Source: a virus. From it: 21,766 nucleotides of DNA. Shown piece by piece: positions 2,459 through 18,730 of the stretch. The first letter of the stretch is position 1; every line of letters begins with the position of its first letter. Both the position numbers and the translations under genes were made by a program. The DNA lies in IMG/VR virus record IMGVR_UViG_3300021197_000232, positions 1-21,766 of that record; one strand, written 5' to 3'. The notes under the pieces were generated by a model. It was not told the DNA's origin. It ran no database searches and saw nothing but the letters and a program-made list of their open reading frames with translations.

Positions 2459-2844
2459 TGGCTAAGAAATCAAATAGAAGCAGGCTCGTAAAAAAACTAG
2501 ACGCAGCGTTCAGCCAATACATAAGGCATCGTGACAGCGTTGACGGTATCTGCACCTGTTGCACCTGTGGCACACGCAAGCCGATTAAAGAAATGCAATG
2601 CGGTCACTTTATTTCGCGCTCCAAATATGCAACGCGCTGGGATGAAGATAACTGCGCGGCTCAATGTGTTGGTTGCAATATGTTCAAACAGGGCGAACAG
2701 TATAAGTTCAGCATCTATATTGACCAAAAACACTACGCAGGCAAAGCGGATGAAATCTTACAGCGCAGCCGCGCAACACAGAAATTCACAGAATACGAAC
2801 TAGAAGAAATGATAACACACTACAAAAACAAAATCAATGGATAA
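2458..2844 (+). CDS. ninG: NinG/Rap-family recombination endonuclease
   Basis: The 128-residue protein matches the phage lambda NinG (Rap) family, structure-specific endonucleases acting on branched intermediates during phage recombination. Visible hallmarks are the basic N-terminal helix followed by FSQYIRHRD (18-26), a Cys cluster CTCCTC (32-37), the CGHFISR motif (48-54), the ATRWDEDNCAAQC stretch (58-70) and CVGCN (70-74), together forming a zinc-supported HNH-like core. Length is shorter than lambda NinG because the C-terminal extension is reduced. The start overlaps the upstream stop by one base, and its 3' end overlaps the next gene by eight bases. Works with ERF and the exonuclease upstream. 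Confidence 0.88.
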   Translation: MAKKSNRSRLVKKLDAAFSQYIRHRDSVDGICTCCTCGTRKPIKEMQCGHFISRSKYATRWDEDNCAAQCVGCNMFKQGEQYKFSIYIDQKHYAGKADEILQRSRATQKFTEYELEEMITHYKNKING

Positions 2845-3310
2845 CACATACAAGAACATCTTAGAAAAACACGCAGACATTTTGAACGAACTTGAGGAAG
2901 CAGTAATCATGAGGGAACTACAGCAAATCAAAACCAACACGAAAAAGGTAGTAAAGAGCATTGACGCGCTTATCGAACATTGGTGCAAGGTGTACTCCGT
3001 GCAGCGCGTTGAACTAGAAGGGAGTAGCCGCAGACATCAGTTGAAGATGGCTAGGTTCTGTATATGGTGGTGCATAAGGAATAAGATTGTGCCAAATGAA
3101 TTAACTTATGAGGCGGCTGGTAAGATATTCAACAGGAATTACGCTACCGCTCTACATGGTGTGTCACAGATTGACCAATGGATGGTTTTTGAAACAGACT
3201 TACGAAACACTATCATGAAACTGTTGGCAGACTATGGCTTCAGGAGTAGTTGGAATGAGGCTGATAAACAACTGCATTGGATGTTGAAGGAGGAACTCTA
3301 TGCTGAGTAG
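2837..3310 (+). CDS. Protein with DnaA domain IV-like DNA-binding region
   Basis: The 157-residue protein has an N-terminal helical region (1-45, charged, possibly coiled coil) and a C-terminal part (about 60-132) resembling domain IV of DnaA, the DnaA-box-binding helix-turn-helix: a basic start (SSRRHQLK), the helix ARFCIWWCIRNK, then YEAAGKIFNR and the signature-like NYATALHGVSQI, corresponding to the DHTTVLHAxxKI region of DnaA. No AAA+ ATPase segment is present. It could bind origin DNA or repress replication or transcription. The start overlaps ninG by eight bases (ATGGATAA). It ends just before a short spacer with a promoter-like dyad. Confidence 0.65.
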   Translation: MDNTYKNILEKHADILNELEEAVIMRELQQIKTNTKKVVKSIDALIEHWCKVYSVQRVELEGSSRRHQLKMARFCIWWCIRNKIVPNELTYEAAGKIFNRNYATALHGVSQIDQWMVFETDLRNTIMKLLADYGFRSSWNEADKQLHWMLKEELYAE

Positions 3311-3352: not shown

Positions 3353-3994
3353 ATGGAAAACAAGAAATCATTTGTCCTATACTGCGACTTGATGCACACA
3401 GTCAAGCGTTTGCCCGATGATGTGGCTGGTCAGCTATTTAAGCACGTTCTAAGCTACGTTAACGATGAAAACCCTGTAACGGATAACCTACTCATTGAAG
3501 TATGCTTTGAGCCTATTAAACAGCAACTGAAGCGCGACCTGTGCAAATGGCAGGAGCGCAAAGATAAACGGGTTGAGGCTGGGAAGAAGGGTGGTCTAGC
3601 AAAAGCTAGCAATGCTAGCAATGCTAAAAAGCCTCTAGCAAACTTAGCTGTAAATGGTAATGTAAATGTAAATGGTAATGTAAGTGTAAGTGTAATAGAT
3701 GAAATAAAAGACACCGCACTTCGTGCAGCGTTTGTTGAGTTCATTAAGCACCGTAAGCAGTTACGAAAGCCGATGACACCCATCGCCATAACACGCATGA
3801 TTAAGAAGCTAAACAAACAAGACCCAGCAACAGCCGAAGCGATGTTGATACAGAGCATGGAAAACGGTTGGTCAGGCATATTTGAATTGAAAGAAAAACA
3901 CAATGGAAAATCAAGAGCAGAACAAGCTATCCAAAACATCAACGAAGGCGGCAACGAAGACCTCAACCAAATTGAGGGACTCGGTAGCTTCTGA
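3353..3994 (+). CDS. Replication initiator-like protein (DUF6291-type N-terminus)
   Basis: The 213-residue protein has three parts. Residues 1-66 (SFVLYCDLMHTVKRLPDD..., then GQLFKHVLSYVND) match the DUF6291-type N-terminus common in Bacteroidota phage replication proteins. Residues 83-115 are low complexity, with repeated ASN and NVNV units. Residues 120-213 have the helical arrangement ending in NGWSGIFELK (171-180), seen in O-like and DnaD-like initiators or helicase loaders. It probably marks the phage origin and recruits host helicase, since no phage helicase or polymerase is in the window. The low-complexity stretch is encoded by DNA repeats at 3596-3696 that resemble origin iterons, as in lambda O. 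Function is inferred. Confidence 0.65.
   Translation: MENKKSFVLYCDLMHTVKRLPDDVAGQLFKHVLSYVNDENPVTDNLLIEVCFEPIKQQLKRDLCKWQERKDKRVEAGKKGGLAKASNASNAKKPLANLAVNGNVNVNGNVSVSVIDEIKDTALRAAFVEFIKHRKQLRKPMTPIAITRMIKKLNKQDPATAEAMLIQSMENGWSGIFELKEKHNGKSRAEQAIQNINEGGNEDLNQIEGLGSF
3596..3641 (+). repeat. Iteron-like repeats CTAGCAAW inside the initiator gene
   Basis: Four copies of CTAGCAA lie at 3596-3602, 3606-3612, 3615-3621 and 3635-3641, each followed by A or T, all in the same orientation. They encode part of the protein's low-complexity linker. Together with the adjacent hexamer tandem they form a candidate replication origin, as in lambda where iterons lie within gene O. Origin function is inference; a coding microsatellite is the alternative. 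Confidence 0.55.
3649..3696 (+). repeat. Eight tandem hexamers of TGTAAN/TGGTAA
   Basis: Eight consecutive six-base units occupy 48 bases: TGTAAA, TGGTAA, TGTAAA, TGTAAA, TGGTAA, TGTAAG, TGTAAG, TGTAAT. They encode alternating Val and Asn/Ser/Gly (NGNVNVNGNVSVSV) and are A+T rich, which could serve as an unwinding element beside the CTAGCAAW iterons. Similar Val-Asn microsatellites occur in other phage initiators, so either coding-linker drift or origin selection is possible. Confidence 0.6.
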
Positions 3995-4580
3995 CATTGC
4001 TGACCAGCTAGACAAGGTGAGCGCTTACTTAGACGCGCCTGTACTAACCAAAGTTCAGAAGGTTGCAGTAATAGACTTTTTGATAAGCGAGTTCAAAACA
4101 GTACAAGTTGACGAACTGAGCACAGCCGTCAAATTAGTGCTAGCTGAAAAGCTAGAAACAACGCGCGATATTGCGTACATAACGAAACAGTCCGTTGGCT
4201 GGTGGGGAACAATCCTGTCAGCATGGACAAAACACAAGAGGGAAATGAGAAAAAGACCTGACCCAATAGACTTAACTAAGCCGCAGTTGACGCAGTACAC
4301 GGGCGTTGATGGTAAAGACCGCGAGTATTATGAGCAGTTGGTCAAGTGGTACAAATTGAACGGGATGCCTGACTATGGTTGGGCCTACAACAAGGCTAGA
4401 AAGTACGCGGAAAACAACGGTTTACTTTTGGTGAAACCAAGCGACAAAGACGCAGTTTGGGAAGTTGCTCGTGAATACTTTAGAACCAAGCGAAGGGAGC
4501 GTAACGAAAAGATAGGTCAGCCTCACTTAGATTACGCTGTAATGTTTCTGCACCTAAAACGGTTGCCCAAAAACAAATAA
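3903..4580 (+). CDS. Hypothetical replication-module protein
   Basis: The 225-residue protein belongs to no family I recognise. ATG 3903 makes a 92-base overlap with the initiator gene in another frame; the next in-frame ATG is near residue 118, which would lose the well-formed helical region, so 3903 is preferred (a GTG at 4018 is possible). Residues 1-25 are Lys/Thr/Ser rich and probably disordered. Residues 30-100 look helical, followed by VGWWGTILSAWTKHKREM (about 99-116) and a basic C-terminal half with YGWAYNKARKYAEN (about 158-171). No catalytic motif is evident. Position after the initiator suggests a helicase-loader or accessory replication role, but this is inference. Confidence 0.65.
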   Translation: MENQEQNKLSKTSTKAATKTSTKLRDSVASDIADQLDKVSAYLDAPVLTKVQKVAVIDFLISEFKTVQVDELSTAVKLVLAEKLETTRDIAYITKQSVGWWGTILSAWTKHKREMRKRPDPIDLTKPQLTQYTGVDGKDREYYEQLVKWYKLNGMPDYGWAYNKARKYAENNGLLLVKPSDKDAVWEVAREYFRTKRRERNEKIGQPHLDYAVMFLHLKRLPKNK

Positions 4581-4581
4581 G

Positions 4582-4815
4582 ATGAAGAGGAAAGACAGGG
4601 AAATACTTTTACGCGCCTTAAAACATTACCAAGCAAGGGACGAAGATGAGGCGTGGGAGGTGCAGCAAATTAGGCTCAGGCTCTACAACGCACACCCCGA
4701 CCAAATAAAGGCAAGAGCGCTAGGAGATAAGCTAAAGAATATGAGTAACAGGCTGTTAATAATTATTATGACGATTGTTGTAGCTTTGGGCCTCTTAGCA
4801 GTATTCTTGAGATAA
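4582..4815 (+). CDS. Small tail-anchored membrane protein
   Basis: The 77-residue protein has a highly charged N-terminal cytoplasmic part (1-56, Lys/Arg/Glu-rich helices) and one hydrophobic C-terminal segment (about 58-76, LLIIIMTIVVALGLLAVFL) ending in Arg. It is therefore probably a tail-anchored inner-membrane protein. It starts one base after the upstream stop. It lacks the two to three membrane spans and context of a typical holin and lies far from structural genes, so lysis is not the favoured idea; membrane anchoring of replication or a superinfection-exclusion role are possible but unsupported. Confidence 0.65.
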   Translation: MKRKDREILLRALKHYQARDEDEAWEVQQIRLRLYNAHPDQIKARALGDKLKNMSNRLLIIIMTIVVALGLLAVFLR

Positions 4816-5379
4816 GTGAAAGACAAGGCAATCTTAGACCTATTATGTGACGAAAGTTTAATAGAACTTTCAAGGAAGTTGGCGGCAAAATATGCTGATG
4901 ACTTGCTTCAAGAGGTTGCTTTGCTTCTGCTGGAAATGCCTGACGAGAAGTGGCGCGACATTAACGAGGGTGAATACTTGCGCTGGTATGTGGTGCGAAC
5001 GATGATGAACATGGCTACATCACCCCGTTCTAATTTTGCGGTGAAATACAGGATATTTGAACACCGATACGAAGTGCCAGCCATTGTAGATGAAGACCAC
5101 TACGATTACGAAAAGGAAGCAGACCTAACCCTTATTGATCAGCTATTAAGCACGTATCATTGGTACGATGCAGACATGGTGAAGCTATGGATTGAAAAAG
5201 GCAGTTACAGGAAAGTCGCAGCCGCCACAGGTATTCCATTCAAGTCAATAGGAAACACAGTAAGAAAAACATTAGACAACTTAAAAGATGACTATATCAA
5301 GCATCATATTGAACGCGCTGTTGAGCGCAGTCCTTTCGCTAATATTTACCGAAATATTGATGATAGACCTGAAGATTAA
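4816..5379 (+). CDS. RNA polymerase sigma-factor-like protein
   Basis: The 187-residue protein starts at GTG 4816, directly after the previous TAA. Residues 15-66 resemble sigma region 2 (YADDLLQEVALLLLEMP, then YLRWYVVRTMMNM). Residues 119-158 resemble sigma region 4: a helix-turn-helix with YRKVAAATGIPFKSIGNTVRKTLDNLK. An acidic linker (90-103) joins them. Such sigma-70-like proteins are common in Bacteroidota phages. It may direct host polymerase to phage promoters, including the repeated element. The gene overlaps the following membrane-protein gene by 92 bases in another frame. It is short for a full sigma and lacks obvious region 3, like ECF types. Confidence 0.7.
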   Translation: MKDKAILDLLCDESLIELSRKLAAKYADDLLQEVALLLLEMPDEKWRDINEGEYLRWYVVRTMMNMATSPRSNFAVKYRIFEHRYEVPAIVDEDHYDYEKEADLTLIDQLLSTYHWYDADMVKLWIEKGSYRKVAAATGIPFKSIGNTVRKTLDNLKDDYIKHHIERAVERSPFANIYRNIDDRPED

Positions 5380-5557
5380 GAAGCTACTAAACATCCCTGA
5401 CTATATTGGGCTGAAACCGTTGGACTGCCCTATGTGCCTTTCATGGTGGACAGGGTTTGCTATTGGGTTTCTTGACTGCGGTATTATGCCAGCGCTTTAC
5501 ACCGCATCCATCGCGCTACTTATGGAGCGCATCATTTATAAGCAGGAATGGATATGA
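5288..5557 (+). CDS. Small integral membrane protein with CPMC motif
   Basis: The 89-residue protein has a hydrophobic N-terminal segment (4-24), a central CPMCLSWWTGF motif (47-57) leading into a second hydrophobic stretch (about 52-64), and a third (68-80). The paired Cys next to a membrane helix resemble the phage-encoded DUF1360-like small membrane proteins, but this is only a weak match. ATG 5288 overlaps the sigma-like gene by 92 bases; a start at the internal ATG near 5360 would delete the first membrane helix, so the longer form is preferred. Function unknown. Confidence 0.6.
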   Translation: MTISSIILNALLSAVLSLIFTEILMIDLKIKKLLNIPDYIGLKPLDCPMCLSWWTGFAIGFLDCGIMPALYTASIALLMERIIYKQEWI

Positions 5558-5793
5558 CCAAAAAGGGAGTAGTAGATTTCATCAAAGAAAACCGTGAGCA
5601 GATAGAACGCTTTTCGGAGAACAGGAATTTCGGTAGGCTAACGAGGGCTGAACAGAAAGGGTATGTTGAAGCATACCAATACATTGAGCCAAAAGCAACG
5701 CTCTGTTTCACCTGTGGGCGTTCAGCGCAGATAATGGGGCGCAGGATGTTGCAATGGTTTGAAGATGCTAAACCAAAGCGAAGGAAGAAATGA
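5554..5793 (+). CDS. Hypothetical basic protein with CxxC motif
   Basis: The 79-residue protein is unrecognised. ATG 5554 overlaps the upstream stop as ATGA, the spacing used repeatedly in this operon; an in-frame ATG at 5548 adds only two residues and is also possible. The N-terminal 45 residues are helical and charged. CFTC at 51-54 followed by a basic helix (GRSAQIMGRRMLQWF) could bind a metal with partners elsewhere, but only one Cys pair is present. The C-terminus is strongly basic (KPKRRKK), consistent with nucleic-acid binding. Its stop overlaps the next ATG as ATGA. Confidence 0.6.
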   Translation: MTKKGVVDFIKENREQIERFSENRNFGRLTRAEQKGYVEAYQYIEPKATLCFTCGRSAQIMGRRMLQWFEDAKPKRRKK

Positions 5794-5975
5794 AATCAGA
5801 ATGGAAGTACGGGTTGTACACAACTTACAACATCTATGACGGTAAATGGTATGCCTTCAACCGAGAAGATTCAATGAAATATTGGAGCGGTGAACCTTGT
5901 CTAAAGGGTACGGGTTACACAGCAAATGAAGCACTAAACGATTATAAGAAATGCAAGTCAAGATTACAGAAGTAA
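5790..5975 (+). CDS. Small hypothetical protein
   Basis: The 61-residue protein is unrecognised. It is rich in aromatic residues (KYGLYTTYNIYDGKWYAF near the N-terminus) and reads like a compact beta domain followed by a helix (TANEALNDYKKCKSRL). The GYTANEAL stretch resembles the end of small HicB-like or modification-associated beta-alpha folds, but similarity is too weak to assign. It overlaps the upstream gene as ATGA and the downstream ParB-like gene by 25 bases, arguing that it is translated with the modification cassette. Confidence 0.55.
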   Translation: MKSEWKYGLYTTYNIYDGKWYAFNREDSMKYWSGEPCLKGTGYTANEALNDYKKCKSRLQK

Positions 5976-6517
5976 AGCCAAACGAAGAGAACCCTCGTTA
6001 CATAAAAGAAGGGAGGTTTGAAAAGCTAGTCAAGTCGCTGAAGGAGTTCCCTGAAATGGCAACGGTTCGCCCGATTGTGGTGAATAAGGACATGGTTGTG
6101 CTGGGTGGCAATATGCGGCTGAAGGCAATGCAAGAAGCAGGCTGGAAAGAAGTACCTGTTGAAGTTGTGGATTGGTCTGAAGAGAAACAGCGCGAGTTCA
6201 TAATCAAGGACAACGTAGGTTTCGGTGAATGGGAATGGGATGCACTTGCAAATGAATGGGACGCGCCTCAGTTGAAAGATTGGGGTTTGGATGTGTGGCA
6301 ACCTGAAGAAGATATTGATTACTCAATACTTGATGAAGAAGATGTTGACGGCCAGCTTGATGATATGGCAGGCGGTGTCAAGAAAGCTATTCAAATTGAG
6401 TTTCAACCTGACCATTATGGAGAGGCTTGCGAGTTGGTTAAGTTTTGGCGCGACCAAGATGCCTACATTGGTAAGATGATAATAGACTTCTTGAAAACAG
6501 AAAAGAATAAACTGTGA
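5951..6517 (+). CDS. ParB/sulfiredoxin-fold protein of the modification cassette
   Basis: The 188-residue protein has an N-terminal ParB-like domain (about 1-90): VRPIVVNKDMVVLGGNMRLK spans 39-58, with GGNMRLKA corresponding to the GERR-type nucleotide-binding motif, followed by VPVEVVDWSEEKQREFII (68-85). The remainder is acidic and Trp rich, then a helical C-terminus. Stand-alone ParB-like proteins, or ParB domains fused to methyltransferases, are frequent beside phage DNA-modification genes. It is unlikely to partition DNA, because no ParA is present. It may act as a CTP-dependent or DNA-targeting partner of the next two enzymes. Its stop overlaps the GTG of the glycosyltransferase gene (GTGA). 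Confidence 0.75.
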   Translation: MQVKITEVKPNEENPRYIKEGRFEKLVKSLKEFPEMATVRPIVVNKDMVVLGGNMRLKAMQEAGWKEVPVEVVDWSEEKQREFIIKDNVGFGEWEWDALANEWDAPQLKDWGLDVWQPEEDIDYSILDEEDVDGQLDDMAGGVKKAIQIEFQPDHYGEACELVKFWRDQDAYIGKMIIDFLKTEKNKL

Positions 6518-7242
6518 TTTGTTGCATACCTACAAAGGGGAGGCCTCATACCAAGACGTATTTGATTTTTGAAGAAGCGAACATCGTTACGTATCACTTC
6601 ATTGAGCCGCAAGATTGGGGTTCTTACGAAGTTCCAAATAAGGTAAAACTACCCGCGAATGATATGGGTGTAGGTTACGCTCGCAATTTTATATTAGAAT
6701 GGTGTAGGTCACAACGGGAGGACATTTGTATAATGAGCGATGATGACATCAATTCGTTTGGATATGTGGCCAATGAGAAAGCCGTGAAAAGTGACGCAAG
6801 CATTTTCCATGAAATGTTGCCTGTCATACAAAAGACCCCATTTGAAATGTACGGCATGAGTTTTCGTCAATTTGCTTGGGCAGAAAAAACCAAATACAGT
6901 ATCAATTCAAAGCCGATTACGGGGGTGGTTATCGTAAAGCCTAGAAAATTGTTGTGGAAGTATCCAAGTACATTCAAAGAGGATCTAATTTTTCAATTTG
7001 AAACGATAAGGAATGGGTATGGAGCGCTGAAATTCAATCACTTTTTCTTTAATTGCCCAGCAGTTGGGACGAATCAAGGGGGCTGTTATGATGGTTATCA
7101 AAAGAAAGAAGATGAATCTGCTGCGAAAAGAATCATGCAGATTTACCATGGCTTCGTAAGGATTGTTAAGAAGCCGAAAAGAATTGACATCAGGTGGGAT
7201 TTTAAGAAATGGGCGAAACACCACAAAAGGGATGTAAGATGA
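6514..7242 (+). CDS. Probable DNA-base glycosyltransferase (TET-associated type)
   Basis: The 242-residue protein starts at GTG 6514 (GTGA overlap). It has features of a GT-A nucleotide-sugar-dependent glycosyltransferase: the N-terminal strand and loop CCIPTKGRP (3-11), a helix with VGYARNFI (53-60), and the metal-binding ICIMSDDDIN (71-80) carrying a DxD motif. This layout, directly next to a TET/JBP dioxygenase, fits the TET-associated glycosyltransferase group, which transfers sugar to oxidised pyrimidines in phage DNA. The C-terminal half (FFFNCPAVGTNQGGC about 173-187) may form the acceptor site; the tail is very basic, consistent with DNA contact. Sugar and acceptor are not readable from sequence. 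Confidence 0.65.
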   Translation: MICCIPTKGRPHTKTYLIFEEANIVTYHFIEPQDWGSYEVPNKVKLPANDMGVGYARNFILEWCRSQREDICIMSDDDINSFGYVANEKAVKSDASIFHEMLPVIQKTPFEMYGMSFRQFAWAEKTKYSINSKPITGVVIVKPRKLLWKYPSTFKEDLIFQFETIRNGYGALKFNHFFFNCPAVGTNQGGCYDGYQKKEDESAAKRIMQIYHGFVRIVKKPKRIDIRWDFKKWAKHHKRDVR

Positions 7243-8036
7243 AAACCGTTCAACTCAAGCAAATTGAACACTCTGTAAAGATTGGCGACCAATGTCCAGC
7301 GTTTGAGCCAAACATAACAGAGGACTGTATATTCTACGCAGACGGTGAGCCCGTTGGTTTCTATCTACGGAAAATGCCTGAAAAAGCCTGTAAAATTGCT
7401 GACCTAGCAAATTATGAGTTCAACGGTGGCAACGTGCCAAAGCAAGAAATGAGCAGAGGGCCACAAGGAAACAAGGCACAGAAAGCACAGCGCAAGAAAG
7501 ACGGAGTTGAATTGGTTACTCAGATGAGTTGTATTCTTGGCAGCGTAGCACCAAAGCCCCACATGAGGAGGCCTTACCCTACAATCAGCAGCGTCCACCA
7601 AGTTGGGTCAGCTAAAACGTTCATCAAAGCGATGCTCTTATTGGCACAGGAAAGCGAAAAGGTGCTTGAACAAATTATGCCTGAACAATACCAGCGCCAA
7701 GTAGAACTATTCAAACGGGTTCAGCAGCAATACAAGTTCGGCAACATCTTCACGAGTTCAATAAGCAACTACAACATCAGCGCGGCAATACACAGGGACA
7801 CAGGCAACATCAAGGGCACAGTCAACGTCATAATCACCAAACGAAGGAACAGTACAGGCGGCAACCTTCACGTTCCTGAATACGGTATAACGATAGACCA
7901 ATGCGATAATTCAATGCTCGTTTACCCAGCGTGGAGGAATGTTCATGGTGTAACGCCTATTGAGCCAACCCACGAAGGAGGGTATCGTAACAGCCTAATC
8001 TTTTACCCATTAAAGGGGTTTGAAACAAAGGACTAA
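7239..8036 (+). CDS. TET/JBP-family Fe(II)/2-oxoglutarate DNA dioxygenase
   Basis: The 265-residue protein carries the double-stranded beta-helix signature of TET/JBP enzymes, which hydroxylate 5-methylcytosine or thymine in DNA. Likely iron ligands are H185 and D187 (IHRDTG) and H236 (NVHGVTP); R250 (GGYRNSL) would bind 2-oxoglutarate. GGNLHVPEYG (208-217) is the typical intervening strand. Residues 70-90 form a basic, glycine-rich segment probably touching DNA. ATG 7239 overlaps the glycosyltransferase stop as ATGA; an in-frame ATG at 7209 adds ten residues inside that gene and is less likely. It probably makes hydroxymethyl bases for the upstream glycosyltransferase. The substrate, methylcytosine or thymine, is unresolved. 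Confidence 0.75.
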   Translation: MKTVQLKQIEHSVKIGDQCPAFEPNITEDCIFYADGEPVGFYLRKMPEKACKIADLANYEFNGGNVPKQEMSRGPQGNKAQKAQRKKDGVELVTQMSCILGSVAPKPHMRRPYPTISSVHQVGSAKTFIKAMLLLAQESEKVLEQIMPEQYQRQVELFKRVQQQYKFGNIFTSSISNYNISAAIHRDTGNIKGTVNVIITKRRNSTGGNLHVPEYGITIDQCDNSMLVYPAWRNVHGVTPIEPTHEGGYRNSLIFYPLKGFETKD

Positions 8037-8041
8037 CAAAG

Positions 8042-8455
8042 ATGGCCAAGAAAATAGAGCAAGCGCACGGGGGCGCAATCAACCGTTTTGAAAAAGGCGA
8101 AAGCGGCAACCCAGCAGGCAGGCCGCCAAAAGTTGAAACGCTACTGAAGAAGCACTTCCTTGAAGAGCATAACGTGAAGCTATCTAAAGGGCAGGTTCAG
8201 GACATCATTAAGAACATACTAGGGAAAAACAGAAGCGAGTTAATTGAGTTAGCTAAGAACGAAGAACTACCTTTTTGGATAGCGTTGATAGCGAACAAGG
8301 CGCAACGTGATTTCAGGAGAGGTTCAATTCATATCTTAGACGTCTTATTTGATAGGGTGTACGGTAAGCCAAAGGAGGAAATTGACCAAACGGTAAACGG
8401 TGGCAAGCCCGAAACGATTGAGGTTGTAATCCACCCTAAACAGGATGAAGATTGA
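8042..8455 (+). CDS. terS: Terminase small subunit-like protein (DUF5681-type)
   Basis: The 137-residue basic protein opens with FEKGESGNPAGRPPK (16-30), the hallmark of the DUF5681 group often encoded beside phage terminases. The rest is helical, with DVLFDRVYGKPKEEID (about 99-114). It starts five bases after the TET stop and overlaps the large terminase gene by 11 bases. That position supports a small terminase role: recognising the phage genome and feeding it to the motor. It is slightly short compared with classical TerS, and sequence alone does not prove the function. Confidence 0.7.
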   Translation: MAKKIEQAHGGAINRFEKGESGNPAGRPPKVETLLKKHFLEEHNVKLSKGQVQDIIKNILGKNRSELIELAKNEELPFWIALIANKAQRDFRRGSIHILDVLFDRVYGKPKEEIDQTVNGGKPETIEVVIHPKQDED

Positions 8456-9629
8456 AGGGACTGAAGTATTTGCTAACCTGTGGTCAGCGCTTAATGATAA
8501 ACAAGTTCGGGGAGTTGTGCTTGAGGGAGGAAGCCGAAGCAGTAAGACGTGGTCGATATGCCAAGCGCTGTACATTCTTGGCACTCAAAGCCCGAAGAGA
8601 ATTGCGGTGGCAAGGTTCAGGCGAACGTGGATTAAGCCAACAGTCCTTGACACGTTCAAAAAGGTTCTTTCATCACTTGGGGAATGGCAGGAAGAGGCGT
8701 TCAATAAATCGGAACTAACTTACCAGCTACACGGTTCTTCATACGAGTTCTACGGATTAGATTCACCCGAAAAGCTACACGGTATTGAAACCGACATATT
8801 TTGGTTGAACGAGGCAATACAAACCAGCAAAGACGACTTCGACCAGCTAGAGCAACGGTGCAAGGGTAAGTGGATTCTTGACTACAACCCCAGCACAGAT
8901 GAGCATTGGATTTATGACAGCGTTTTAAGGCGTCCTGACGTTGTTTATATCCACAGCACAATGCTGCACAACACATTCCTAGAACCACACATCAGGAAGA
9001 AGATATTAAGCTACAAGCCAACGCCTGAGAATGTAGATAAAGGCACAGCAGACGAGTTCAAGTGGAACGTCTATGGTTTGGGAAAGCGTTCAAGGCGTGA
9101 AGGTGCGGTCATTACAAATTGGGCTGAAACTAGAGATTGGCCTACGGGCTACAAGTGGAAAGCCTACGGGCTTGACTTTGGGTTTACGCACGACCCCACC
9201 GCCTTAGTAGAGGTTCTGTTCAATGACGGCAAGCTATGGGTCAGGGAAATAATCTACGACACAGGCTTAATGAATACAGATATAGCCAACAGGTGCGGCC
9301 TCAAAAGGTCAGACGAAATAATAGCAGACAGCGCAGAGCCTAAGTCTATTGAAGAAATAAGGCGGCACGGGTTTAGAATAAGGGGCGTAAAAAAGGGCAC
9401 AGACTCCGTGAGGGCTGGCATAGACAAATTGAAAAGCGTTCAAATTATGGTACACGCAGACTCAATCAATGTAATACGGGAACTGAAGTCATACGCTTGG
9501 AAGCGCGACTTCAAAACCAACCAAGCAACCAACGTTCCTGAAGATGCAAACAATCACGCGATGGACGCGCTGCGGTATGTGGCAATGGAAAAACTGAACA
9601 CCAATGCAGGGAAATACGTAGTGCGATAA
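8445..9629 (+). CDS. terL: Terminase large subunit (packaging ATPase-nuclease)
   Basis: The 394-residue protein has both terminase domains. The ATPase has Walker A GGSRSSKT (28-35), Walker B IFWLNE (118-123, catalytic E123) and the coupling motif DYNPS (146-150). The RNase H-like nuclease has D244 (GLDFGFTHDP), D295 (IIADSAEPKS) and D374 (HAMDALRY). It resembles the PBSX/XtmB type (Terminase_3). It packages DNA into proheads through the portal and cuts it. It is the last gene of unit 1: its stop is followed at once by the second promoter element. Confidence 0.93.
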   Translation: MKIEGTEVFANLWSALNDKQVRGVVLEGGSRSSKTWSICQALYILGTQSPKRIAVARFRRTWIKPTVLDTFKKVLSSLGEWQEEAFNKSELTYQLHGSSYEFYGLDSPEKLHGIETDIFWLNEAIQTSKDDFDQLEQRCKGKWILDYNPSTDEHWIYDSVLRRPDVVYIHSTMLHNTFLEPHIRKKILSYKPTPENVDKGTADEFKWNVYGLGKRSRREGAVITNWAETRDWPTGYKWKAYGLDFGFTHDPTALVEVLFNDGKLWVREIIYDTGLMNTDIANRCGLKRSDEIIADSAEPKSIEEIRRHGFRIRGVKKGTDSVRAGIDKLKSVQIMVHADSINVIRELKSYAWKRDFKTNQATNVPEDANNHAMDALRYVAMEKLNTNAGKYVVR

Positions 9630-9632
9630 TAT

Positions 9633-9706
9633 TTTTCTTCCCTAATTGTTGTGGTAACAAAATTATTTGTATATTCGTAGTGTCAAAACACACAAACAAA
9701 CAAACA
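9633..9706 (+). promoter_or_regulatory. Promoter/leader element, copy 2 of 3
   Basis: This element matches positions 1-74 at 72 of 74 bases. The TTG at 9649-9651 and TATATTCG at 9670-9677 form the same Bacteroidota-type promoter, and the dyad TTGTT-N5-AACAA lies at 9646-9660. The element lies entirely between the terminase stop and the ATG at 9712, including the CA-rich leader. Such identity in otherwise unrelated non-coding DNA implies shared regulation of units 1 and 2, probably by one factor. Confidence 0.85.
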
Positions 9707-9711
9707 AAGTC

Positions 9712-9897
9712 ATGAAAGGTACTTTAACATTCACAACGAGAACAGAAGCCGAAAAATTTGCAACCGCTTGGTCAAGATACAGCGGATTAGGTCACACAAT
9801 CGGAGCAGGTGACATTCTTGTTGCTGTTACTATTTACGGAATCACAGATTCTTTGAAAGCTTGGATCAACAATTATGTTCGGGAGGCACACGCTTAA
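9712..9897 (+). CDS. Small hypothetical protein, first gene of unit 2
   Basis: The 61-residue protein is unrecognised. ATG 9712 is chosen as the first start after the promoter and CA-rich leader; an in-frame TTG at 9667 lies within the promoter. The sequence alternates beta-like (LTFTTRTEA, DILVAVTIYGI) and helical parts (EKFATAWSRY, DSLKAWINNYV), suggesting a compact alpha/beta fold. No Cys motif or membrane segment is present. Position as first gene of the late-type unit mirrors the 83-352 gene, and the two share leader sequence but not protein sequence. Confidence 0.65.
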   Translation: MKGTLTFTTRTEAEKFATAWSRYSGLGHTIGAGDILVAVTIYGITDSLKAWINNYVREAHA

Positions 9898-13298: not shown

Positions 13299-16200
13299 GG
13301 TTTGGGTTGAAGGCAAAAGGCTAGACGTATTTGAGGGGTTCAATTTCTCCTTCAATTACAGCATCGCGGATGTAAGGCATCCCGACAAGCGAAACACAGA
13401 ATACAGCAAGACAATCAAGTGTCCTGCAACGCAGAATAATGACACGCTATTCGGGCAGATTTACGATGTAAACATCAGCAACGTTTACAACGCTTCTAAC
13501 GACAATATAGAAGTCAACTTTAATCCTAATAAGCAGGCTAGGGCAGAGGTTATGAGCGAAGGCGTGAACATTATGCGCGGCACGTTGCAACTGCGTAAGA
13601 TAGTCCGCAAGGGTACGGAGTACGTCTATGAAGTGGTTTTCTTGGGTAAGCTAGTGGACATCTTTGGAGTGTTGGGCGATAAGCAGCTAAACGGCCTAGA
13701 CGATAACTCTGTAAACTACATTGATTTCAGCGACCTAGACCATGACTACACGCAGGCGAATCAGATAGCAAGTTGGACGGCTACCTACGGGGAAGGCTAC
13801 GTTTACCCAATGCTAGACTTTGGAAAGGGTATAGACTTCAACCCACAGGGCTTAAAGAAATACTTTGTCGATGATTTCAAGCCTGCCCTATATCTAAAGG
13901 AAATAATAGACCGAATCTTTGCCTTTGCTGGGTTCAGTTATACTAGCAGTTTTCTTTCGTCTGCTTTCTTTGAGCGTCTTATAGTACCCGTTACGTCAAA
14001 GACTACACCCGTACCTGAGCGTCTTTTTCGCGCAGGAATACCGTCTTCGGAATACTTCGTGACGAGTTTAACGCCACAGGTTGAGCAGGTATTAATAGAC
14101 TACCGCGAAGAGTCAGTTATGGGAGCATTAAGCGCGCCTTTTATATCTAGCGCGACACCGTTAGCTATTGGCAATGATTCTAGGATAGGCTGGGACGGAA
14201 ACGGTATGGCTTTAATCTGCTTTGATAACGACAGTACGTTAGGAAACTTTGACAACGGAACTGCAACCAGCTTCGGGAATTATCGGGTAAACCCCACAGC
14301 CTACCCTCCTGTTGGTGGTACTAACAGTTCAGGATTCCCCAATGTAGAACTAGGGTGGCAAAGTTTAGATAGCGGTTCTTACTCATTTCGGGTGAATCAA
14401 GAAACCGCTGGACACTACGACCTGTCCTTTAGGCTTAGATTTAGGTGGAGAGAACAGAGAAGGTTGGGCGATACTGCTAATGATTGGTGGGACAATTTAG
14501 TAGCAGAAATAGAATACCAATACGGGCTCACGCAAACCGAGTATCTACAAGGGACGGCAAAAATACACCGAAGAAGGGCTAACGCTTCGGGGGGCTGGTC
14601 TGTTATCACGGTTCACGAAGAAGCTATTAGCATACCGCTAAACGCTTTTGATGACACTACGAGCGTTAGTGCTGAACAACTTGGTGAATTGTATATTGAG
14701 GGGGTCGCTGAAAGCGTGGAATGTTTACCCGATGACGTCTTTTTTGTCGCGGTTCATTTTCCACAGAGTTTAGATGGTGCGGCTGCAACGGGATTCAGTC
14801 CTGAATTATCTTACTTCGCTTATTTCAATGACCTAACTAGAGGGGCTTACAGTATGTATATGGTGGTCAGCGGTCAGTTTTGGAATGAACAGAGCGCAGG
14901 GGCTGACGCGGTAGAGTATGAGAATTACCACTTTAACGGTAATATTCCTGAAGTGGGTATGGCAGACCTATTGAAGTCTGTTATTAATATGTTCAACCTG
15001 TACGTCACAACAGACCCGAACCAAGAGAACAACCTGTTGATTGAAACACGGGACGACTTTTATGAGGCTGGTTCAGTAAAAGATTGGACACACAAGCTAG
15101 ACTATTCTAAAGAAATAACGCTTGAGCCTTTGGCGCTTCTCACGGCTAATGAATTTGAATACACCTATTCGGAAGATTCAGACTATTACAACGAGCGCTA
15201 CCAAGACGCGCACGGGCACACCTACGGACGCGCTAGAATAGATGTAGATAACGACTTCTTGCAGAATACGAATAAGACGGAAGTAGTATTCAGTCCTACG
15301 CCTTTGGTAAATGACAACCCTAGTAACAGGATAATAGGAAAGGTTTACGACAGCGACATTGAGGAAGGCGCACAGCCTACGGACTTTAATATTAGAGTCC
15401 TTTACTATGCTGGTCTTTTAGTTAGCGACCCTAGATGGATACACGCTTCGCTGATAGATAGCTGGGACTATCGACTAGAATACCCTTACGCTGGACACCT
15501 AACGCACCCAACAGCACCATCTCAAGACATTAACTTCGGTATTCCTAATGAATTGTATTATTCAGGAAATAGCTACACGGGAACGCTTCTTTACACCAAC
15601 GACAACCTGTTTAACCGCTATCACAGGCGGGGGCTTCTTGAAATAACCAACAAGGACAGCAAGCTAAAGACAGCCTATTTTTACCTAACGCCTGTTGATG
15701 TACACAAGCTAGATTTCCGCGACCAAATCCTAATAGATAACAGCTATTGGCGTATCAACAAGGTTATGAACTACAACCCGTTCAATGACGACCTAACCAA
15801 AGTTGAACTGATTAAGGTTATTACCAAAGAGCCACTAAAGTCGCGGACTTTTGAAGTGGGAACAGGCGGCACAGTACAAGGCGGTTCAGGCGTAGAGAAG
15901 CGCCCTACAACGCGCAAGAGCCTAAAGAATGGCAATAGGTCACCTTTGTTCGGTGGTATCGTTAGGGGTAAGGATAACGAGGTAGAAGAGGGCGTTACTT
16001 CTTTCATGGTGCAGGGCAACAGAAACAAGGTTAAGAAAGGAAGTAGGGACGTTACAATTATCGGGGACGACAACACGGTAGAAGAGGGCGTTACGGCTGT
16101 GAGGCTTATCAATACGAACGGGGTAACTGTAACCGAATCTAACGTAACATTCGTGAACAACCGCCAGCAAGAAAGTTCAGACGTACTAGAGGGCGGCTTA

Positions 16201-16320
16201 GACGAGGTTCGCGACCTGAACGGGGGCACTAACATATTCACGGTGGACGGTGGGTTGAATACTGTTCAGACACAGTTTAGCGAAACGTCTATTTACTTAA
16301 TAGAAGGAGGTAACAACTAA
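13291..16320 (+). CDS. Very large tail/baseplate protein with C-terminal repeat
   Basis: The 1009-residue protein, the largest in the window, starts at GTG 13291 (GTG GGT GAG) and overlaps the upstream gene by eight bases. N-terminal sequence VFEGFNFSFNYSIADVRHPD (about 11-30) and FNPNKQARAEVMSEGVN resemble tail proteins in Bacteroidota phages. The middle is beta rich. Residues about 890-955 contain repeated units such as DNEVEEGVTSF, NRNKVKKGSRD and DNTVEEGVTAV, giving a parallel beta-helix-like repeat; the DNA GGTAGAAGAGGGCGTTAC occurs at 15981-15998 and 16077-16094, 96 bases apart. It probably forms a tail hub or side-fibre base. Host-binding function is inferred. Confidence 0.7.
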   Translation: MGEVWVEGKRLDVFEGFNFSFNYSIADVRHPDKRNTEYSKTIKCPATQNNDTLFGQIYDVNISNVYNASNDNIEVNFNPNKQARAEVMSEGVNIMRGTLQLRKIVRKGTEYVYEVVFLGKLVDIFGVLGDKQLNGLDDNSVNYIDFSDLDHDYTQANQIASWTATYGEGYVYPMLDFGKGIDFNPQGLKKYFVDDFKPALYLKEIIDRIFAFAGFSYTSSFLSSAFFERLIVPVTSKTTPVPERLFRAGIPSSEYFVTSLTPQVEQVLIDYREESVMGALSAPFISSATPLAIGNDSRIGWDGNGMALICFDNDSTLGNFDNGTATSFGNYRVNPTAYPPVGGTNSSGFPNVELGWQSLDSGSYSFRVNQETAGHYDLSFRLRFRWREQRRLGDTANDWWDNLVAEIEYQYGLTQTEYLQGTAKIHRRRANASGGWSVITVHEEAISIPLNAFDDTTSVSAEQLGELYIEGVAESVECLPDDVFFVAVHFPQSLDGAAATGFSPELSYFAYFNDLTRGAYSMYMVVSGQFWNEQSAGADAVEYENYHFNGNIPEVGMADLLKSVINMFNLYVTTDPNQENNLLIETRDDFYEAGSVKDWTHKLDYSKEITLEPLALLTANEFEYTYSEDSDYYNERYQDAHGHTYGRARIDVDNDFLQNTNKTEVVFSPTPLVNDNPSNRIIGKVYDSDIEEGAQPTDFNIRVLYYAGLLVSDPRWIHASLIDSWDYRLEYPYAGHLTHPTAPSQDINFGIPNELYYSGNSYTGTLLYTNDNLFNRYHRRGLLEITNKDSKLKTAYFYLTPVDVHKLDFRDQILIDNSYWRINKVMNYNPFNDDLTKVELIKVITKEPLKSRTFEVGTGGTVQGGSGVEKRPTTRKSLKNGNRSPLFGGIVRGKDNEVEEGVTSFMVQGNRNKVKKGSRDVTIIGDDNTVEEGVTAVRLINTNGVTVTESNVTFVNNRQQESSDVLEGGLDEVRDLNGGTNIFTVDGGLNTVQTQFSETSIYLIEGGNN

Positions 16321-16904
16321 TGGCAACACAAGACTCAAGAATAAGATTAAAGCGTTCAACGGTGGCAGGGGCGCAACCAGCCGCAGCGCCAAGCGCAGAC
16401 CACACAGATGGAACGTGGGGGGTGAATGACGTTTATGTGGGTGAACTGTACCTGAACGACACCGACCAACGGCTGTATGTTAGGACTACAGGCGGCATCC
16501 TTGAAGTGGCTACAGGTGGGGGCGAACTAAAACGGGCGCAGATAACACTAACAACCGCCCAAGTTCTAGCTCTGAACTCAACTCCTATTACGATAGTTGG
16601 AGCAATCTCAGGCAAGGAAATTCAAGTGGTATCTGCTTCATTTCACTTGAAGTATGCTACAACGGCCTACGCAACCAACACAACGCTTGCATTGCGAAGC
16701 TCGTCAAGCACAGGCTCTGTATTGCAAGCGGAGGCGGTTATCAATGGAGCAGCAGACGCGATTGGAGTTCTTAGCCTTAACTCAGGAACGAACAACATAG
16801 TGACGGGAGATGCTCTTGTTGCAACCGTTCTCACAGGCAATCCAACCGCAGGCGATAGCGATATCGTAGTTGATGTTCTTTACCGTGTAACCGATTTACC
16901 ATAA
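16320..16904 (+). CDS. Tail-tip/fibre-like protein
   Basis: The 194-residue protein starts at ATG 16320 (TAATG overlap). An N-terminal region (5-62) with RIRLKRST followed by VYVGELYLNDTDQRLYVR (38-55) resembles the N-terminal attachment domain of phage tail fibres and tropism determinants. Residues 70-194 are Ala/Thr/Gly rich and beta-like, as in a small head or stalk. It may form a receptor-contact subunit attached to the large upstream protein. No chaperone or enzymatic domain is seen. It overlaps the tape measure gene by one base (taATGg), so translation may be coupled. Function is inferred. Confidence 0.55.
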   Translation: MATQDSRIRLKRSTVAGAQPAAAPSADHTDGTWGVNDVYVGELYLNDTDQRLYVRTTGGILEVATGGGELKRAQITLTTAQVLALNSTPITIVGAISGKEIQVVSASFHLKYATTAYATNTTLALRSSSSTGSVLQAEAVINGAADAIGVLSLNSGTNNIVTGDALVATVLTGNPTAGDSDIVVDVLYRVTDLP

Positions 16905-18730
16905 TGGCAGATAGTAGAATAGCGCTAGAGGTTGACGTTAATATAGGCGACCTAGACGAAAGGCTAAAAACCGTTGAAGGCAAATTAGGCGATTTAGGCG
17001 ATTTAGGCGAGGAGGCTGGGCAAAAGGTATCAGACGGGTTTAATGCAGCAGGCAAGAACGCTGAAAACGCTTCTAAAGGGATAAAGTCTGCGGCTGGTGG
17101 TCTTGGAGACATGATTAAGGCGCTTGGTGTCATAGGCATTGCGCTACAGGTTTTCAATTTCTTAAAAGACATCTTGATGAAAAATCAAGCGGTCATGGAT
17201 GCTCTAAACACCGCCACACTAGCCTTTGAGATTCTAGTCAAGAAACTGTTTGACTCTATCAGTTCGCTGGCAGAACCAATCAAAGCGGCCTTTGAAGACC
17301 CGAAGCAATCAATAAAAGACTTAGGGAACTTTATAGTAGACAACTTAATCAATAGGTTTCAAGGCTTGATGCTTGCCGTTGAGGCACTTGGGACAACTTT
17401 CAAAGCATTATTTGAAGCAGATTGGGACGGTGCTGTAGAAGGTGTAAAAGATTACGGTCAGGCTTTAATACAAGTCAGCACAGGCTTAGACAAAGAACAA
17501 CAGGCCGCGATAGTAGATGGGGTCAAAGAGTTTGCCGAAGAAACAGCCAACGCAACAAAGGCGGCAGTTGATGAAGCAGCCGCTATCATTAGGCTAGAAA
17601 ATGAACTGAAAATACTAGAGGCAACCCAGCGTAAGCAAATCCTAGTATCACAGAACCTAGCAGAACTTGAAAGACAAAAGAGGGACGACATAAGCCTTAC
17701 AATAGCTGAAAGGGTTAAGGCGAATGACAAGTTGGGTGAGATACTTGATGACCAACTAGAAATTGAAACAGGCATAGCGCAGAAGCGTCTTGAATTAGCT
17801 AAAAGGCAAGCGGCACTAGATAAGACGAACGTTGATTTACAGGCTGCGGTCATAGATGCAGAGACAGAATTAGCTGATGTCCGCGAAAGGATAAACGGTC
17901 AAAGGTCTGAACAGCTAGTAAACCAAAAGGCGCTAGAAAAAGAATTAGCCGACTTCCAAAAAGAACTAAGGGTAGTTGGCAAAAGTGAAAGAGAACTTGA
18001 ATTAGAAGAACTTCTAATTGAAATAGAACGCCTTGCAGAAATAAAGCGCCTAGCAAACGACACCGAACTAGACATTGAAGAAGAAAAGCGCGTAAGGTTA
18101 GCAGAACTTCAAGCCACTTGGGACGCTGCAGACTTAGCCGCTAAAGAAAAGAAGGCCGCTGAAGAAGCCAAGTTAGCAGAACAGGAGGCTAAGGCAATAT
18201 CCGAAGCAGAAAAGAAAAAGCAAGATGCAAGGGAGGCAGGGCTATCAGCAGCAGGCTCTGTTCTAAATTCACTAGGTCAATTAGTAGCCGCAAGCGGTGA
18301 ACAATCTAAGGAAGCCGTAGCGCTTCAAAAGGCGATAGCAGTTGCACAAATAGCAATAGACACAGCAAAGGCGGTGACGGGCGCAATAGCACAGGCTCAA
18401 AGCGTTCCTTACCCTGCTAACCTTGTCGCAATAGCTACGGGGGTCGCTGCGGTGCTGGGTGGAATTGCTTCAGCTACGGCAACCCTAAACTCTGCACCAA
18501 TGGGAGGCATGACAGCCCCTGCTCCACCCAATGCAAACGCGGCTATTTCATCGGCTGCGGCTTCTGCTCCTAGTATGCAACAGGTGTCAACGTCAACTAC
18601 AGAACTAGGGGGCGCAGAACAGGCACAGCTAGCACCGATACAAGCCTTTGTCATAGAAACAGAAATGACGGGCAACCAAAACAATATTTCACAAATTGAA
18701 AACCAAGTAACATTCGGAATTGATGGATGA
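16904..18730 (+). CDS. Tape measure protein
   Basis: The 608-residue protein has a helical N-terminus, a hydrophobic stretch (about 72-90), a long coiled-coil central region (about 225-450, with many Glu/Lys/Ala heptads), a hydrophobic C-terminal part (about 505-535: PYPANLVAIATGVAAVLGG) and a low-complexity tail. These are tape measure features, the protein setting tail length and later entering the host envelope. The rough rule of 1.5 angstrom per residue would suggest a tail near 90 nm, an estimate only. A nine-base unit TTAGGCGAK is repeated three times at 16985-17011 (LGDLGDLGE). The 3' end overlaps the protease gene by eight bases. Confidence 0.85.
   Translation: MADSRIALEVDVNIGDLDERLKTVEGKLGDLGDLGEEAGQKVSDGFNAAGKNAENASKGIKSAAGGLGDMIKALGVIGIALQVFNFLKDILMKNQAVMDALNTATLAFEILVKKLFDSISSLAEPIKAAFEDPKQSIKDLGNFIVDNLINRFQGLMLAVEALGTTFKALFEADWDGAVEGVKDYGQALIQVSTGLDKEQQAAIVDGVKEFAEETANATKAAVDEAAAIIRLENELKILEATQRKQILVSQNLAELERQKRDDISLTIAERVKANDKLGEILDDQLEIETGIAQKRLELAKRQAALDKTNVDLQAAVIDAETELADVRERINGQRSEQLVNQKALEKELADFQKELRVVGKSERELELEELLIEIERLAEIKRLANDTELDIEEEKRVRLAELQATWDAADLAAKEKKAAEEAKLAEQEAKAISEAEKKKQDAREAGLSAAGSVLNSLGQLVAASGEQSKEAVALQKAIAVAQIAIDTAKAVTGAIAQAQSVPYPANLVAIATGVAAVLGGIASATATLNSAPMGGMTAPAPPNANAAISSAAASAPSMQQVSTSTTELGGAEQAQLAPIQAFVIETEMTGNQNNISQIENQVTFGIDG

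Follow-up and report, generated by a model that had tools for sequence, protein, structure and literature searches.

Genes of the cassette and their protein families

The window, which is the whole 21,766-base IMG/VR record, is a linear fragment in which three overlapping genes occupy positions 5951-8036 of the plus strand. They encode a stand-alone ParB/Srx-fold protein (5951-6517, 188 amino acids), a glycosyltransferase of the TAGT family, probably of GT-A type (6514-7242, 242 amino acids) and a TET/JBP 2-oxoglutarate/Fe(II) dioxygenase (7239-8036, 265 amino acids from the conserved ATG). The ParB stop codon overlaps the start codon of the glycosyltransferase, a GTG, in the GTGA at 6514, and the end of the glycosyltransferase gene (7242) overlaps the TET start in the ATGA at 7239. 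The longest open reading frame for TET begins at 7209; the start common to its relatives is 7239. On re-reading of the sequence, the coordinates and joins given in the earlier note were correct, and its residue numbering of TET agreed with the shared ATG at 7239. Terminase genes lie directly downstream of TET (8042-9629, plus strand): a probable small subunit (8042-8455), assigned from its position, the conserved gene order and DUF5681, and being the gene usually found after TET, and the large subunit (8445-9629; PF17288, E = 3.4e-19; PF04466, E = 3.8e-17).

Profile searches of the three proteins, which the earlier note had proposed, gave scores above the Pfam cut-offs in every case. The first protein matched ParB_N (PF02195; E = 1.8e-7, 31.5 bits, cut-off 26.3), in line with the ParB fold first assigned to it, and its residues 2-137 matched the ParB module of phrog_498 (E = 1.8e-26), a phage family of ParB-methyltransferase proteins. 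The profile of the family also matched solved ParB and Noc structures (E = 2e-9). By analogy, these results support the possibility that the protein binds DNA and serves modifying enzymes as an adaptor. In the RefSeq record of Prochlorococcus phage MED4-184 (L058), a stand-alone ParB gene at 15790-16431 is labelled 'DNA methylase', a name that looks inherited from PHROG family 498.

The glycosyltransferase matched TAGT (PF20691; E = 2.1e-9, 38.1 bits, cut-off 27.5) and phrog_842 (E = 9.9e-17). Both motifs named in the earlier note were found, IPTKGRP near the N-terminus and the DDD of SDDD at residues 76-78, and P6, K8, R10 and D76-D78 were invariant in an alignment of 13 TAGT relatives. A model built from 13 sequences reached moderate confidence (mean pLDDT 68.6) and matched the GT-A glycosyltransferase domains of LH3 and ColGalT1, together with nucleotidyltransferases and nucleotide-sugar folds of related structure.

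The third protein matched Tet_JBP (PF12851; E = 1.3e-14, 54.2 bits, cut-off 34.9). Its HRD motif (7791-7799) contributes H185 and D187 to the iron triad, which H236 (7944-7946) completes, as read from sequence and alignment; R250 (7986-7988), the presumed 2-oxoglutarate ligand, aligns with the arginine of RISLVFYQH in TET2. All four residues, named already in the earlier note, were invariant across 117 TET relatives. The AlphaFold model built from 40 relatives (mean pLDDT 91.2) recovered a double-stranded beta-helix of TET type, and its best solved matches were human TET2 (Z = 19.6) and NgTET1 (Z = 19.0), with FTO (Z = 14.8) and AlkB-type enzymes well below; the predicted structure thus bears out the family assignment. 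In RefSeq the TET/JBP gene of MED4-184 (17129-17914) is labelled 'queuine tRNA-ribosyltransferase', and this public label of the family is what would speak for RNA or a host target, in place of phage DNA, as the substrate of the dioxygenase and glycosyltransferase. It is apparently a misnomer that goes back to PHROG 6059. Pfam assigns the protein to Tet_JBP and the PDB comparison to the TET fold, not to a tRNA-guanine transglycosylase, and the partners found with it, ADDT (see below) and ParB, are DNA-modification modules, so that we regard an RNA or host target as highly improbable.

Two further features were observed elsewhere in the window. A direct repeat of 81 bases (1-81 and 9633-9713, 94% identical) stands ahead of two gene blocks and contains TTG...TATATTCG, resembling Bacteroidota promoters; judged from its sequence, it could be a phage promoter that occurs more than once. 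Positions 2837-3310 encode a small protein whose DNA-binding domain is of DnaA type, next to ERF, PDDEXK and NinG genes.

Conserved gene order and exchange of the middle gene

One scan of viral sequence returned 53 related loci, and a profile scan returned at least 599 stretches, at least 588 of them encoding a relative, from which the best 80 were compared. Most related records are fragments. Among 84,980 species-representative genomes there were three matches, all of them MAG contigs, too few for a host assignment via prophages. The nearest cultured phages by TET were Prochlorococcus phages MED4-184, P-HS2 and MED4-117 (48% identity); more distant cultured relatives were found in actinophages and in Nonlabens phage P12024L.

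The order ParB, middle gene, TET was kept in the sampled loci, and the terminase small and large subunit genes (TerS and TerL) then usually followed. Overlaps of four bases were present at 79 of 95 junctions between ParB and the middle gene (hereafter the slot) and at 75 of 103 junctions between the slot and TET. Mycobacteriophage Stinger carries ParB-TET-TerS-TerL at its genome start. The profiles, the high-confidence TET model and this gene order, seen in about 110 loci, back the reading of the three genes as a DNA-hypermodification cassette, which very probably hydroxylates a DNA base and then adds a sugar to it.

The slot was readable in 109 loci and held a glycosyltransferase-like gene in 70, an FkbM methyltransferase (PF05050) in 25, a kinase with a Walker-A P-loop in 9, a GT-B-like gene in 1, and no gene in 4. 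The glycosyltransferase-like genes comprised 46 of the TAGT family and two further groups of 17 and 7, the first matching phrog_842 only and the second matching TAGT weakly (24.2 bits, under the cut-off). The lone GT-B-like protein (301 amino acids) had no profile match and was read as GT-B from its sequence. On the TET tree the slot label changed at least 41 times. In 27 pairs of loci, ParB and TET were about 78-97% identical in DNA and the slot genes were unrelated, and in the best of these pairs, L040/L043, L066/L067, L110/L113 and L101/L115, the DNA alignment broke off and resumed within a few bases of the ends of the slot gene.

When the comparison was extended to every pair of loci alike in ParB and TET, whatever the slot, replacement of the slot gene was seen in 37 of 76 (49%; the pairs are not independent) as against 21-39% for the flanking genes. 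The excess was only modest because phage mosaicism is generally high, and with so small a margin over its neighbours the slot was not retained as a strong exchange hotspot. The functional kinship of the enzymes is a stronger point than the frequency of their exchange: to judge from their families, nearly all the replacements could act on a hydroxyl group. An exchangeable gene between ParB and TET was not found described in the open-access literature, outside which the main papers of the field lie.

The constancy of ParB might also be taken to mean that modification is guided to a few sites, for instance near the packaging site, where it would mark the DNA for packaging or timing instead of covering the whole genome. 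In nearly every locus TET is accompanied by a ParB-fold gene, and most relatives have the cassette beside the terminase genes; in Stinger ParB-TET-TerS-TerL stands at the start of the genome. This adjacency, however, may reflect operon history alone, and an exchange among sugar, methyl and amino acid decorations better fits an arms race with nucleases; marking of a few sites is therefore, in our judgement, improbable.

Thymine or 5-methylcytosine as substrate

The known phage TET enzymes that have been assayed in vitro use 5-methylcytosine as substrate, and the window TET could do the same, with a C5 methyltransferase encoded outside the fragment or by the host. TET would then produce 5-hydroxymethylcytosine (5hmC) and TAGT would glycosylate it, a scheme that resembles phage TET pathways as described and is analogous to the T-even phages. 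TAGT takes its name from its link with TET; its T6 member acts on glucosyl-hmC, to which it adds a second glucose (PMC13216743). In a profile alignment N190 of the window TET corresponds to N1387 of TET2 and is invariant in the relatives, which also agrees with a cytosine substrate. H1904 of TET2 corresponds to L258, a difference that suggests another base pocket and does not indicate which base would fit.

The earlier note had reported no cytosine methyltransferase in view, and indeed PF00145 was absent from the 21,766-base record, a linear fragment and not a whole phage. Among related records, C5 methyltransferases were detected in 3 of 50 and 8 of 50 (11 of 100), directly upstream of ParB in L016 and away from the cassette in some other records; none was found in the other 89 records or in five cultured phage genomes, including that of MED4-184, which carries ParB-FkbM-TET. 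Since these genes are sporadic, an obligate source of 5-methylcytosine is not visible, and a C5 methyltransferase is not a regular partner of the cassette.

In contrast, partners characteristic of a thymine route were linked to TET in close relatives. ADDT (PF18724), an amino acid:DNA transferase of the 5-hydroxymethyluracil route, was present in four of the seven kinase-slot records tested (L112, L049, L051 and L114) and was not found in the other three (L024, L034 and L115), nor in any of 14 large IMG/VR records whose slot was filled by another gene, empty or unread. It adjoins TET in Microbacterium phage Kozie and lies near TET in Rhodococcus phage Tonitrus. The TET of L112 is 64% identical to that of the window, and between ParB and TET (3711-6001) this record encodes a glutamine-amidotransferase-like protein, a GNAT acetyltransferase, ADDT and a kinase, a gene set that suggests an elaborate base adduct of amino acid type; L112 also encodes a C5 methyltransferase. 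In the thymine route 5hmdU is phosphorylated and then derivatised, a 5hmdU DNA kinase and alkylamine transferases acting on it (PMC6449724), and the Pfam names ADDT and HMUDK_hel likewise point to this route. The authors of the Tonitrus study called its ParB, TET, ADDT and kinase genes a predicted thymidine hypermodification system (PMC11955845). A Pfam scan of 20 window proteins revealed neither ADDT/aGPT-PPlase nor a 5hmU kinase, the slot being occupied by TAGT.

Thymine is favoured because ADDT and kinase partners occur in close relatives and a regular C5 methyltransferase partner does not. The comparative evidence has thus moved a question that the earlier note left open, thymine or methylcytosine, towards thymine, to which, from these gene associations, we give about twice the weight of 5-methylcytosine as the probable substrate; the route through 5-methylcytosine appears rather unlikely to us, if by no means negligible. 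The specificity of ADDT-bearing relatives need not be that of the window TET, and it is possible that specificity differs among subclades.

Two other possible indicators of the substrate were discarded. Dinucleotide composition gave no usable signal of 5-methylcytosine, the CpG odds being 0.90 in the window and spread from 0.49 to 1.53 in relatives. Residues of the base pocket gave no clear separation either: a second phage TET clade has D and R at the positions of N190 and L258, and its member L157 adjoins an ADDT-like protein. On the 59 kb contig of L157, positions 5404-9100 encode consecutively a TET, a probable GT-B glycosyltransferase and the ADDT-like protein, the last two read by eye.

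Proposed pathway and comparison with known systems

The scheme that we favour, with somewhat more confidence than doubt, is that the cassette converts thymine to 5-hydroxymethyluracil (5hmU) and then to glycosylated 5hmU, with loading by ParB, and thereby protects packaged phage DNA. The three genes would act on the DNA of the phage itself once it has been replicated. TET/JBP would hydroxylate thymine in DNA at its 5-methyl group, producing 5hmU, and TAGT would move a sugar from a nucleotide sugar onto the 5hmU hydroxyl, yielding a glycosylated base comparable with base J of trypanosomes. The ParB-fold protein would load or target the enzymes as a DNA-binding adaptor, and the modified DNA, once packaged, would resist host nucleases. 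Escape from host nucleases, which the earlier note had also proposed, would be reasonable to expect by analogy with other hypermodified phages.

A broader proposal, which we put forward tentatively and hold to be plausible without being probable, is that TET-made 5hmU is a common hub in a widespread phage lineage, whose ParB-TET frame would take different decorating enzymes in exchange for one another: base-J-like DNA would result from glycosyltransferases, possibly O-methylated 5hmU from FkbM methyltransferases, and amino acid adducts from a kinase with an amino acid transferase. The comparative pattern makes testable whether phages contain glycosylated 5hmU and whether one hydroxylase serves several decorations, and MED4-184, MED4-117, Stinger and Tonitrus are cultured relatives suited to direct chemistry. 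Such systems could also yield new glycosyl-, methyl- and aminoacyl-transferases acting on DNA, which would be useful as reagents. Papers on base J in phages, or on FkbM in DNA modification, were not found in the open-access literature, a weak sign of novelty; glucosylated 5hmdU was unreported in phages as of 2019 (PMC6449724).

The closest parallel in chemistry is base J of kinetoplastids, where a hydroxylase of the TET/JBP family (JBP1/2) acts first and a glycosyltransferase (JGT) then acts on the hydroxymethyl base; JBP and JGT make base J in trypanosomes (PMC6449724). That system, unlike the window, is eukaryotic and uses another glycosyltransferase. In T2 and T6, as in the window, an enzyme of the TAGT family acts on phage DNA, whereas T-even hmC is already formed as a nucleotide, with no part played by TET. 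As another likeness to the slot, T4 and T6 carry different glycosyltransferase genes at one syntenic position (PMC13390438).

Among phages with TET/JBP, Nonlabens phage P12024L resembles the window in that its TET/JBP gene (PF12851) adjoins a TAGT gene (PF20691; gp26-gp27), but TET precedes TAGT, the neighbouring methyltransferase is of N6/N4 type and no ParB is annotated alongside; three residues past the HxD aspartate its TET has D where that of the window has N. Tonitrus shares ParB-fold and TET/JBP genes in the same order with terminase downstream (PMC11955845), but has ADDT and a kinase of 5hmU type, with no TAGT in the displayed region. MED4-184 and MED4-117 share the entire order ParB-slot-TET-TerS-TerL and a TET 48% identical to that of the window, whereas the slot of MED4-184 holds an FkbM methyltransferase. 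Pairs of TET/JBP and glycosyltransferase have already been predicted in phages; what is added here is the exchangeable slot and the argument for thymine.
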